From: Indolivaga capnocytophagoides DSM 22835
Lineage (GTDB): Bacteria > Bacteroidota > Bacteroidia > Bacteroidales > Dysgonomonadaceae
Reading direction: 5' to 3'
NCBI RefSeq assembly: GCF_000426485.1
Contig: NZ_AUFL01000014.1
Span: forward strand, 1 to 64,000
DNA length: 64,000 nt
Every line of letters starts with the position of its first letter. Within the stretch, counting starts at the first letter, position 1. The notes beneath the pieces are model-generated. The model had not been told where the DNA came from. It saw only the letters and a list, made by a program, of their open reading frames with translations, and searched no databases. Shown here one piece after another: positions 36,417 to 53,291 of this stretch. Position numbers and translations under genes: made by a program.

Positions 36417-38606
36417 TTAAAGTTTTTTCAATCCTTTGGTCTGGCTTTTGTCAGTTACCGGAACAAGGCTTATGGCATATCCTCCACCGGGAACAGATAA
36501 TTGAGTCAGTTTCGATTTATTTGTTACGATTACCTTACGGATAGTGTAAGCTTGAGGATTTGTCTTATAATCCGCATTTTTTGCATCGGCATAGATAGTC
36601 GCAATGTATTCTTTATCAGAATCAAGGAAGTCAAAACCTATTTTAGAAGTGAAGGTATTATACCCCGCTGTGTTTCCAACAAACCATTTGTCCGTTCCTT
36701 TAGCTTTACGGGCTACAGTAACATATTCGGCAGGCTCAGCTTCGAGATATATGCTGTTGTCCCAATCCAAGGCTACATCTTTGATAAACTGGAATGCATC
36801 CGGAAAGCGATTGTAATTTTCAGGAAGATCAGCTGCCATTTGAAGCGGGCTGCTCATAGTTACATAAAGAGCCAGTTGGTTGGCAATAGTAGAGTTACAG
36901 TGAGAATGGTTGTTCGGATTGATTTTCTCGATATCCATTTCGAATATACCTGGAGTATAATCCATCGGGCCTCCGATCAGACGGGTGAAAGGCAGCACGC
37001 ACACATGATTTGGTTTACTTCCACCGAATGCCTGATACTCAGTTCCCCGAGCAGATTCGTTCCCGATCAGATTCGGATATGTACGACAAATTCCGGTAGG
37101 GCGAACAGCTTCGTGGGCATTGACCATTATCTTATATTCGGCAGCTTTTTCTATTGCAAACTGATAGTGATTATTGATCCATTGACTGTAATGGTTCTCG
37201 CCCCGGGGAATGATATTACCAACGTATCCGCTTTTTACAGCCGGATAGTCGTATTTATTCATCAGTTGATATGCTTTGTCCATATAGCGTTCGTAGTTAC
37301 GTACCGAGGCTGATGTTTCATGGTGCATGATCATTTTTACGCCTTTGCTTTTGGCATATCGGTGTATTTCTTCGATATCGAAATCAGGGTATGGTGTTTG
37401 GTAGTCAAAAACAAAGTCTTTCGAATGTCCGAACCAATCTTCCCATCCTGTATTCCATCCTTCTACCAATACTCCGTCAAAGCCATTCAAGGCTGCAAAG
37501 TCTATGTATTTCTTCACGTTTTCGGTGGTTGCTCCGTGTCGGCCATGAGGTTTTACTTTGCTATAGTCGGTAACACCCAGCTGAACACTTTTCAGGTCAT
37601 TTGTATATGACCAGTCACTTTTACCGGTGATCATTTCCCACCATACACCCACATACTTCATTGGCTTGATCCATGAAGTATCGTCTATTTTACAAGGATC
37701 ATTCAGGTTGAGAGTGATATTTGATGCTAATATTTCGCAGGCATCATCACTTACGATAACTGTACGCCATGGTGTTGTAGAAGGAGTTTGTAAGTGTCCT
37801 TTGGTTCCGTTTGCATCAGGGGTAATCCACGATTGGAAAATGAGGGTTTTGTCATCCAGATCGAGATGCATACAACCGTAGTTGATAAGTGCGGCCTCAT
37901 GTAAATTGATATAAATACCATCAGCAGTTTTCATTTGTAAGGAAGTCTGAACACCTGTTTCGGAGAATCCTGTTTGAGACAGGTTGCTTGATCTGCCTTG
38001 CTGATTGATACTTCTTATTTCCGAAAGTTTCGATACATGGTAGTCGTACTCCTGAGTATCATAGTCACCAGGAATCCAATAAGCGGTATGATCTCCTGTC
38101 ATGGCAAACTGGGTAAGCTCTTCTTTTATCACAAAGTAAACAAGATTGTCCTGTTGCGGAAATTCATAACGAAATCCCAGACCATCGTCAAACAAACGGA
38201 AGCGGATAACCATATTACGGTCTGTTGATTTCTGGTTCAGGGTTACAGCCATTTCATTATAATGGTTCCGTATATCCTTTGTTTCACCCCATACCGGTTG
38301 CCATGTTTCGTCAAAAGATGAATTTTTCACATCGCTAATGTTAAAACCATCGTACAAAGAAGTCTTAGGATCTTTATTCTTCTTTATCTTTGCACCAAAT
38401 TCAGCACTTTCATTGCCTGTCAGTTCTAAACCCAGCTTACTAGGGTTGATAACACTTTTTCCTTTATATTTCAAGGAATAAATGGGTGATCCCTCCTTAT
38501 TGAGCGAAAAGTTGAGCTCGAAGTTCCCATTTGGCGATTTTAATTCTTGTGCGTTTATTATTGTCATAACAAATAAATAACACAATGCCAGAGTTAATTT
38601 TTTCAT
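36417..38606 (-). CDS. GH97 alpha-glucosidase (SusB-like)
   Basis: 729 aa with signal peptide (ending INAQ), close to SusB in length. N-terminal beta-sandwich, catalytic barrel and C-terminal domain are present. Inverting-type residues are seen: Glu430 in MHHETS and Glu499 in NAHEAVRP as probable bases, Glu517 in [10 protein letters not shown] as probable acid. [11 protein letters not shown] and the DYTPGIFE segment are typical. It should hydrolyse alpha-glucosides, including alpha-1,6 or alpha-1,4 oligosaccharides, to glucose in the periplasm. It lies at the end of the alpha-glucan locus. Confidence 0.92.
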
Positions 38607-38697
38607 TTTTTTTATTTTCCTATTAGAGTTTATACTTAATAAGTGTAGTATATTATTTGATAATAGATATTATGTTTTTTATGAGTTTATTGATCTC

Positions 38698-51501: not shown

Positions 51502-51623
51502 TGAGAGACATGTATTTAAATAAAATTCACATTGACAAAATATAGATACATGATAGGATTAATCATCTTATATATAAGTGATTATTTATTTTTTTACTGC
51601 GAAAAATATAGATTGAGTATCTG

Positions 51624-53291
51624 TTATTTTTTCTTAACGGAGCTTATTTTCATTACCCTGTTTTCGAAATCGTCACGAGGTACTGCAGCCTTATTTCTTA
51701 CTCTGGTGCGATAGCTGTAAATTGTATTTGCGGAATAATGGAGGAAACTGGCTATTTTTGAACTATCGGTGATACCCAGACGGATAAGAGCAAATATACG
51801 TAATTCTACGTTGAGTAACTCATTGGGTTTCAAAACAAATTTTTCTTCATCGAGGAGTAGCGAATTGAATTCTTCGACAAAGTTTGGATACAAATGTAAG
51901 AAGATATTATCGAAATTCTCATAAAGTTCTTTCAACTCATTGTTAATCATGTCGCTGGATTTTAGCATCTTGTATAATTCATCCAGCTTTTTTTCCACGG
52001 CCTTTTTGTTTAAGGTGTTCTGATACTTTTCCAATTTGTTGATGTATGTTGAACACAAATCGAGAAAATGTCCTATATAAGCTTCCTTTATCTGGTTTGC
52101 TTCGGATAAATTGGTGTTAGCTTCCGATAATTCTTTATTTACAATATGTAACTGGCTGTTTGTCCCTTGTAGCTCATCGTTTAGTTCGTTCAGCTTTACG
52201 TTTGTACGATATAATTCTTTCCTGATACGGGCAACCCTTTTCATTTGCCTGTAAGTGTATACAATAGCTAAGACCAGAAAGAACGATAAGATACATGCCA
52301 GCATGAGATATGACCGTAATTCGGAGTTCTTCCCATTTATCTTTTCCTTGTATGCCAAGTCGATGATCGGGAATATCTGAGAAGCTTCGTATGCCCTGAA
52401 TCGTGCATTCGAAAACATAGCGTCTTCCATTGATGAGCGTATGCAGTCATATGCCCGTTCTATATCGCCTGTTTCATACAGAACAGTTGCCAGAGCTTGC
52501 ATTGAGGCATTTTCTTTGATTGAGTTTTTTATATCGCATATTGCCGATATGGCATAATATCTCTTTTGTAAGTCGGTATTTCCTTCCTTCATATAGATAT
52601 TTGCCAGAGCATAAGCCAATACTGCTTTCTCGTGGGTATCAGTTTTGGTCTGATTGAGCATGGTTTGCAGCATTTGTTTAGATTCGTTCAGCTTTTGCTG
52701 GTCATATAGCTTTTCGGCGTATACAATTTTATAGTGGTTGGATTTTTTATCCAGAATATTAAGCAGTGAATCTCGGTATAGATCACTAGTTGCTTTATAA
52801 GACCGTGTATAAGGATTATTTTGTGAGTAATTGCTATATAACAATTTATAGCAATCGTAATATTTAACTAATAACCAATCAGGCAAAGTTTTTTTATCGA
52901 TAGACTTCAGGCTGTCTTTCGATTCTATATACATGCTCGAAAATATATACAGAGAGATAAGATCGAGTTTAGACTCGTTTATCCGGGTGATATCGTTTCT
53001 TTTCCTTGCGATTTTAAGGTTTTGCTCGGTATAGAAGATAGCCGAATCGGAGATGAAGGTCTTATATTCATCGTACAGTTGGTGGTTGATATCGTAACGC
53101 TGGCTATCGCTTATATCGGGTACTGCCAGCATCGATTTGACACGTGATATCTTATCTTTCTTTTGCTGCACATATATTCCCTTCTTTTCTATCAGTTTAT
53201 ATAGGGTACTGTATATTGTATCGGAGGTGGTATGAGCCTGAGATACAAAGGATATGAGAAGTAATAAAATTACAGGTGAAAATCTTTTCAT
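51624..53291 (-). CDS. SusR-like membrane-bound transcriptional regulator
   Basis: 555 aa. Signal peptide, a periplasmic helical TPR-like sensor (about 25-325), one transmembrane helix (about 328-348; YLMLACILSFFLVLAIVYTY), a long coiled coil rich in NELNDEL/NKELSEAN (about 360-420), and a C-terminal LuxR-like HTH (about 490-545; IFALIRLGITDSSKIASFLHYSANTIYSYRTRVRNKA). This is the SusR type (DUF6377 as I recall), which senses alpha-glucan oligosaccharides in the periplasm and activates the adjacent sus-like operon. It lies upstream of susC on the same strand, with its own promoter candidate at 53330. Confidence 0.88.
   Translation of the reverse strand: MKRFSPVILLLLISFVSQAHTTSDTIYSTLYKLIEKKGIYVQQKKDKISRVKSMLAVPDISDSQRYDINHQLYDEYKTFISDSAIFYTEQNLKIARKRNDITRINESKLDLISLYIFSSMYIESKDSLKSIDKKTLPDWLLVKYYDCYKLLYSNYSQNNPYTRSYKATSDLYRDSLLNILDKKSNHYKIVYAEKLYDQQKLNESKQMLQTMLNQTKTDTHEKAVLAYALANIYMKEGNTDLQKRYYAISAICDIKNSIKENASMQALATVLYETGDIERAYDCIRSSMEDAMFSNARFRAYEASQIFPIIDLAYKEKINGKNSELRSYLMLACILSFFLVLAIVYTYRQMKRVARIRKELYRTNVKLNELNDELQGTNSQLHIVNKELSEANTNLSEANQIKEAYIGHFLDLCSTYINKLEKYQNTLNKKAVEKKLDELYKMLKSSDMINNELKELYENFDNIFLHLYPNFVEEFNSLLLDEEKFVLKPNELLNVELRIFALIRLGITDSSKIASFLHYSANTIYSYRTRVRNKAAVPRDDFENRVMKISSVKKK

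Follow-up and report, generated by a model that had tools for sequence, protein, structure and literature searches.

A predicted dextran utilization locus with an added putative GH65 alpha-1,2-glucosidase of a separate lineage in Indolivaga capnocytophagoides

Eight full-length genes lie in the same direction on the minus strand, from position 53291 down to 36417, of a 64,000-nt stretch of DNA from Indolivaga capnocytophagoides DSM 22835 (contig NZ_AUFL01000014.1, positions 1 to 64,000), which was analyzed as a whole and is called the window below. They are predicted to form a polysaccharide utilization locus (PUL) for dextran, a slime sugar that lactic acid bacteria produce, of the kind known from Flavobacterium johnsoniae (FjDexUL) and Bacteroides thetaiotaomicron (BT3087-3091), with an added gene for a putative alpha-1,2-glucosidase of glycoside hydrolase (GH) family 65. 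In the order of transcription the genes encode a SusR-like regulator, SusC, SusD, SusE, GH66, GH31, GH65, and GH97, and a pair of candidate regulator sites is located upstream of susC:

51624..53291, minus strand: SusR-like membrane regulator (DUF6377); NF058541 SusR_regulator 634.5 bits, cut-off 480; Pfam DUF6377
51534..51614, minus strand: candidate regulator site pair, AATCTATATTTTTCG (51614-51600) and TATCTATATTTTGTC (51548-51534), 66 bp apart, upstream of susC
48335..51334, minus strand: SusC TonB-dependent outer-membrane transporter; TIGR04056 SusC/RagA 969 bits, cut-off 368
46821..48308, minus strand: SusD-like lipoprotein; Pfam SusD_RagB 160 bits; lipobox Cys by eye
45348..46787, minus strand: SusE/F-like surface glycan-binding lipoprotein; Pfam SusF_SusE and SusE
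43515..45272, minus strand: GH66 endo-dextranase, predicted surface lipoprotein; NF052487 EndoDexBT3087 956 bits, cut-off 730; lipobox by eye
40771..43257, minus strand: GH31 dextranase-type alpha-glucosidase, predicted to be exported; Pfam GH31; signal peptide by eye
38698..40725, minus strand: GH65, predicted inverting alpha-1,2-glucosidase (kojibiose hydrolase type), exported; NF053734 890 bits, cut-off 800
36417..38606, minus strand: GH97 SusB-type alpha-glucosidase, predicted to be exported; Pfam GH97 N, catalytic, and C domains; signal peptide by eye

All eight proteins pass the fitting Pfam cut-offs (687 bits for GH66, 312 for GH31, 196 for GH65, and 347 for GH97), and the genes of the SusR-like regulator, SusC, SusD, and SusE stand side by side according to Pfam and NCBIfam. 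The combination of GH66, GH31, and GH97 with SusC/D/E and a SusR-like regulator, named in an earlier sequence-only reading of this DNA, is thus present with every gene intact. NCBIfam models are over cut-off for four of the eight proteins (GH65, GH66, SusC, and the regulator) and none is over cut-off for SusE, SusD, GH31, or GH97; the name “retaining alpha-galactosidase” was rejected for GH97 because it reached 250 bits against a cut-off of 800. The closest solved structure for GH66 is 8iu8 (“Candidate dextranase GH66,” E 6e-206), which we take to be FjGH66, and D290 and E353 align with residues fitting FjGH66 Asp293 and Glu355 at a constant offset. For GH31 it is 6jr6 (“Candidate alpha-glycosidase GH31,” presumably FjDex31A), with 1270 bits over 808 residues and the next molecule at 322 bits. 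The closest structures for GH97 are 9bs5 (1168 bits), SusB 2jka/2d73 (1165), and 8wg0 (“Candidate alpha-glucosidase GH97,” 1129), the last presumably FjGH97A.

In FjDexUL (Fjoh_4428-4435) the order is SusR-C-D-E-GH66-GH31-GH97-GH65, S-32 alpha-glucan raises susC expression about 50-fold, and the enzymes jointly degrade alpha-1,2/alpha-1,3-branched dextran (PMC10316084). The window has the same eight families, the same order from the regulator to GH31, and the same predicted division into surface lipoproteins and exported periplasmic proteins, but its genes run GH31-GH65-GH97 instead of GH31-GH97-GH65 (the order is not treated as essential), and its GH65 comes from another lineage, with R74 and W473 of FjGH65A replaced. 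The sequence-only reading, a dextran locus with an alpha-1,2-glucosidase directed at branched dextran of lactic acid bacteria, agrees by homology with FjDexUL in composition, families, structures, and residues. To our knowledge, the dextran locus of B. thetaiotaomicron has no GH65, and the added GH65 distinguishes the window from it. The two share the set of SusC, SusD, surface glycan-binding protein (SGBP), and GH66, together with a SusR-type regulator, SusR2 in B. thetaiotaomicron (PMC7618045, PMC3878776), and in B. thetaiotaomicron this surface set forms a four-part complex (PMC7618045). The window locus appears to be an FjDexUL-kind system, and the mechanism proposed for it would be the published one, because the composition of FjDexUL and the B. 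thetaiotaomicron surface complex have already been described; what is new is limited to the separate origin and position of GH65, the split at the R74 position, and the operator pair in the family, Dysgonomonadaceae. The published branched-dextran system would thereby extend to another genus of the Dysgonomonas family.

The GH65 protein matches 7fe3 by phmmer (E 4e-185), that is, the kojibiose hydrolase FjGH65A (EC 3.2.1.216; PDB 7FE3; PMC8626586, from which the residue roles are taken). In an alignment ungapped around the active site, the general acid E464 and the general base E608 correspond to FjGH65A Glu472 and Glu616, so the hydrolase-type second Glu noticed earlier is indeed in place. 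The binders of the +1 glucose Trp391, Glu392, and Thr407 correspond to W383, E384, and T399, and W335, D336, K530, and Q531 lie in the –1 subsite. The phosphate site of phosphorylases (two Ser, His, and Lys) is replaced by P567, A568, F617, and M322, as in FjGH65A. Altogether 14 of the 16 checked positions agree, those of the missing phosphate site among them, and the differences are R74 (E73 in the window) and W473 (Y465). Since both Glu and W383/E384/T399 are kept and the phosphate site is missing, the GH65 protein should be a hydrolase of the kojibiose hydrolase type. The AlphaFold model (46 sequences, mean pLDDT 90.2) has the same fold, its closest structural match being 7fe3 (Z 57.3, rmsd 1.8, 642 residues), followed by human PGGHG (Z 44) and then by the kojibiose phosphorylase 3wiq (Z 39). 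The N-terminus, MKYKLLIIIFLCINSLQYLSA|Q, reads by eye as a signal peptide, which supports the export of GH65 claimed from the letters alone.

For the phylogenetic analysis, named genomes were scanned, yielding 298 GH65 relatives; the best 80 of these were retained, and the tree was built for 45 rows hand-picked from 86, the dropped rows being mostly close marine Flavobacteriia. FjGH65A clusters with the GH65 of family genome G018 (100/100) within a clade of five rows that has a long branch (100/100); the window GH65 pairs with that of the Dysgonomonas sp. BGC7 locus L087 (100/100), and the Bacteroides cellulosilyticus group is placed elsewhere. The approximately unbiased (AU) test rejects the grouping of the window pair with FjGH65A and G018 (p-AU 3e-8), as well as its grouping with the B. 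cellulosilyticus group (p-AU 0.008; 0.002 with L092), these p-values being optimistic because the groups were chosen with the tree already in view. Constraining seven rows regarded as GH65s of dextran loci to a single group is rejected at 2e-64, a value inflated because this constraint omits L087, the sister of the window GH65, as well as L092, and contains L088, from a contig too short for GH66 to show. The tree thus rejects one shared origin of dextran-locus GH65s. The window GH65 belongs to a second, well-separated lineage, acquired separately from that of FjGH65A; searches of an open-licence library found no paper on this second lineage in dextran loci. The loci of B. cellulosilyticus, Bacteroides oleiciplenus, and Bacteroides stercorirosoris (L089-L091) also combine GH66, GH31, GH97, and GH65, the latter 58–62% identical to that of the window, but their GH65 gene follows GH97 and is not sister to the window gene (AU p 0.008, 0.002).

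Among the best 80 of the 298 relatives, the nearest GH65 is L087 (72% identical). Its locus in Dysgonomonas sp. BGC7 (L086, 255-13000, the same as L087) has SusR-, SusC-, SusD-, and SusE-like genes like the window, but differs in having no GH66 in the fetched stretch and in encoding a SusE-domain fusion and an exported protein for which Pfam gives 6-hairpin glycosidase hits. The catalytic part of the fusion matches the isomaltodextranase (GH27 type) 5awo (E 7e-100), and its SusE domain matches BT3088 (E 3e-6), the dextran SGBP of B. thetaiotaomicron; a PDB search with the 740-aa partner protein of L086, the one of 6-hairpin type, gave no match at E 0.001. This is a candidate second kind of dextran locus, probably dextran-directed. 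Because of the isomaltodextranase-like fusion and the BT3088-like SusE domain, the lineage of the window GH65 appears to be linked with dextran through two distinct gene contexts, though the majority of the 80 named members were observed in neither of them.

In 101 genomes of the family, GH66 is present in 25, GH65 above the cut-off in eight, and both in four; within the dextran locus, GH65 is found in three of the 25 GH66-bearing genomes (the window, G018, and G011). Four loci (L063, L077, L080, and L081) end at a contig edge before the GH65 region and are not judgeable in this respect, and the stretches of L076 and L079 end within about 1 kb past GH97. The GH65 gene of the G011 dextran locus (L058, about 2297-4440) has one in-frame TAG, which may mark an ongoing loss or a mistake in the assembly. 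In a 393-genome sample of the order, GH66 is present in 27 at E 1e-30 (24 over the cut-off) and GH65 above the cut-off in 19. Nine genomes of this sample have both, and only the same three have them in one locus: in G354 and G400 the genes are far apart on the same contig, and in G263, G315, G425, and G451 they are on separate contigs (in G425, with an assembly of about 1230 contigs, proximity is not judgeable). Uncorrected for kinship, GH65 is commoner in GH66 genomes (9 of 27) than expected from its overall frequency (19 of 393). Previously, GH65 was reported in 11 of 70 GH31+GH66 loci, and a figure legend of the same paper includes loci of several Bacteroides species and of Dysgonomonas mossii (PMC10316084).

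The other seven genes form a core, and among the 24 other GH66 loci of the family 18 have it with the order unchanged. The remaining six comprise four loci cut by contig ends, L078, with neither a SusR-like gene nor GH97 nearby, and L079, with neither a SusR-like gene nor the core GH31. In L079 (G090) susC is preceded by a GH31 gene whose product has a type IX secretion tail (3-2729), and between GH66 and GH97 there is a gene for a 540-aa Melibiase_C protein (10764-12386), its secretion tail being weak. The GH31-GH97 junction of the 18 loci varies: it is 10–112 bp long in 14 of them, 269–376 bp in L060, L068, and L071, and 2284 bp in L064, where a junction protein matches the isomaltodextranase 5awo (E 4e-105). 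This exported isomaltodextranase-like GH27 protein of G014 (L064 13260-15461) has a chitobiase-C-like domain and a type IX secretion tail.

The window GH65 sits exactly at this variable junction, separated from its neighbors on the same strand by 45 and 91 bp. In G011 and G018 the GH65 gene follows GH97, and the proteins are 45% identical to that of the window. In the genus of the window, G001 and G005 have the locus without GH65, with GH31-GH97 junctions of 25 and 14 bp, and the closest congeneric genome, G002, 91% identical in the 58488-61310 gene, has no GH66. A syntenic empty site of the whole locus was not found in the roughly 40 kb of G002 compared, or in the 20 kb taken from each of G005 and G001. 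The predicted debranching GH65 is an add-on acquired on more than one occasion, from different lineages and in different places of the same core. The base composition of the window gene (GC 0.373 and, at third codon positions, 0.297, compared to 0.365–0.419 and 0.329–0.419 in its seven neighbors) is suggestive of a recent foreign gain and was not used as evidence.

Taken together, we estimate the probability of a dextran PUL of the FjDexUL/BT3087-3091 kind with an added alpha-1,2-glucosidase at about 0.78. Several points weigh against it: the window GH65 is only 45% identical to the characterized FjGH65A and differs from it at R74 and W473, GH66 is present in the fetched stretch of only four (L089-L092) of the 80 named GH65 loci, several of these stretches being cut by contig ends, and the eight genes are not certain to form a single operon, as the repeat-bearing gap between GH66 and GH31 may contain its own promoter. 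The strongest alternative, which we consider unlikely, is a locus for linear dextran and isomalto-oligosaccharides, in which GH65 is a passenger acting on some other alpha-1,2 substrate (e.g., Glc-alpha-1,2-Gal or kojibiosyl glycans) and of little use for dextran. The core without GH65 is the rule, one of the three GH65 genes in dextran loci having an in-frame stop, and most of the 80 named relatives come from stretches without GH66; nevertheless, dextran loci have been entered by GH65 genes of at least two lineages, and GH65 is over-represented in GH66 genomes, if kinship is left uncorrected. The second structural match, human PGGHG, is a Glc-alpha-1,2-Gal-hydroxylysine glucosidase (PMC8626586), but the +1-glucose binders are retained in the window protein, and its gene is closely enclosed by two genes of the locus. 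Far less probable is a starch (Sus) locus, as SusB-like GH97 and SusR-like proteins also belong to the starch system: GH97 is about equally close to SusB and 8wg0 and the regulator is of the SusR family, but no GH13 amylase is found among the eight genes, GH66 exceeds the endo-dextranase cut-off, and the core is that of dextran loci, so this reading was rejected on enzyme content. A GH65 phosphorylase of the kojibiose phosphorylase type, suggested by the common family and the structural neighbor 3wiq, is the least credible and was rejected on residues, as those of the phosphate site are replaced and the base E608 is there, and periplasmic export would be ill-suited to the gain of sugar phosphate by phosphorolysis.

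In the favored dextran PUL, SusE, SusD, and the lipoprotein GH66 would be located on the outer membrane with SusC. GH66 would cut dextran to (branched) isomalto-oligosaccharides, to be imported by SusCD; in the periplasm, GH31 would trim or re-size alpha-1,6 chains, GH97 would free glucose from alpha-1,6 (perhaps alpha-1,3) ends, and GH65 would hydrolyze alpha-1,2-linked glucose by inversion, with E464 as the acid and E608 as the base. The imported oligosaccharides may act on the SusR-like protein, which would then activate susC and the genes behind it via the paired sites about 67 bp apart. GH65 would have joined a dextran locus that already had the seven other genes, in an event distinct from the gain of GH65 by F. 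johnsoniae. Removal of branches most likely takes place in the periplasm, after the action of GH66 and import, because whole branched dextran is a poor substrate of FjGH65A, which is thought to cleave alpha-1,2 links only at non-reducing ends of imported oligosaccharides (PMC10316084).

The restriction to non-reducing ends, concluded by the authors for FjGH65A, is connected with R74, which hydrogen-bonds the +1 glucose and blocks its O6 (PMC10316084); R74 is a feature of FjGH65A and not a part of the kojibiose hydrolase family definition. We compared 103 related, not independent, GH65 rows (FjGH65A, the window, four family loci, 80 named loci, and 17 of the order, with L167-L183 counted via BLAST and the fragment L184 left out). 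All 103 rows retain the two catalytic Glu and the Trp-Glu pair. Arg occupies the R74 position in all 11 rows that are nearer to FjGH65A by identity and in just one of the 92 nearer to the window, where Pro (50 rows) and Glu (13) are frequent and four rows have gaps. The counterpart in the window is E73, in an ungapped alignment and in a loop modeled with pLDDT of about 72 (block mean). A second lineage of GH65 hydrolases without the O6-blocking Arg, taken up independently by dextran loci, might have an open +1 subsite and thus be capable of internal alpha-1,2 debranching, thought impossible for FjGH65A. We regard this only as a tentative possibility, because E73 is not small, the model is less certain in the loop, and a basic residue is nearby: most aligned rows have Arg or Lys five residues past the R74 position (R78 in the window), and this residue might assume the role of R74. 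As a direct prediction of who can attack internal alpha-1,2 branches, the R74 position would matter for forecasting bacterial use of alpha-1,2-branched prebiotic dextrans.

The regulator gene, located beside susC, encodes a SusR-type DUF6377 protein above the NF058541 cut-off. This protein is 61–74% identical to the regulators of 20 other dextran loci of the family (the 21st, of L081, is split over two open reading frames, ORFs), and 32–38% identical to SusR-like proteins of the other loci L082 and L086. Upstream of susC, 22 of the 24 loci, the window included, have paired sites 65–68 bp apart, compared to 0.07 of 24 on average when Markov resampling was done 300 times; the pattern, TC[CT]A[CT][AT]T occurring twice 64–70 bp apart, was derived with the alignment in view, and several of the loci nearly duplicate one another. 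The two misses are L079 and L078: L079, with no SusR-like gene found beside susC, has a near-match at 64 bp whose second site contains an additional base, and L078 has no site pair upstream of susC. In L078 (G092) a FecR anti-sigma gene (13447-14460) precedes susC, which is N-terminally extended. A change of the regulator type is possible in L078, making it one informative negative for the site pair. The spacing in the window fits that of published SusR-type operators, the comparison being one of spacing; this agreement is independent, because SusR-type sites were predicted as direct repeats with 67 or 77 bp between centers (PMC3878776), the same study assigning BT3091 to dextran.

The GH66-GH31 gap (43258-43514) is 257 bp long, compared to less than 90 bp in 20 of the 21 other loci holding both genes, and the region around 43350-43443, with the core ACCTTTGTTACCTTTT, is an interspersed repeat matching 12 other places of the genome over 25–79 bp (E 0.01). 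Ahead of GH31 there is also a 77-bp direct repeat (TTGTTACCTTTT / GTGTTACCTTTT), which agrees with the second of the published SusR spacings; it is not claimed as an operator, as among the loci scanned it is present only in the window and overlaps the interspersed repeat. No Rfam family was found above the gathering score in 33000-54000, with three rows far below the threshold.

Beside the dextran locus, a second LytS-like histidine kinase gene (34527-35613) seems, by reading, to be split into the overlapping frames 34527-35204 and 35161-35613, which may be a frameshift, either genomic or introduced by the assembly; another kinase gene (33479-34522) and a LytTR regulator gene (35610-36323) accompany it. 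Further away, at 22705-32726, there is another glycan gene cluster with GH43, two GH31, and an AraC-type regulator with a sensor propeller, in which the ORFs 22705-23937 and 23810-27169 overlap by 128 bp. The region 12943-20307 encodes a protein with a type IX secretion tail (12943-13836), followed by two large RHS-repeat proteins, the second with DUF6443. On the other side, GH43, GH35 beta-galactosidase, and a galactokinase-like ORF (by reading) at 53453-58064 adjoin the locus on the same strand and are not part of it.

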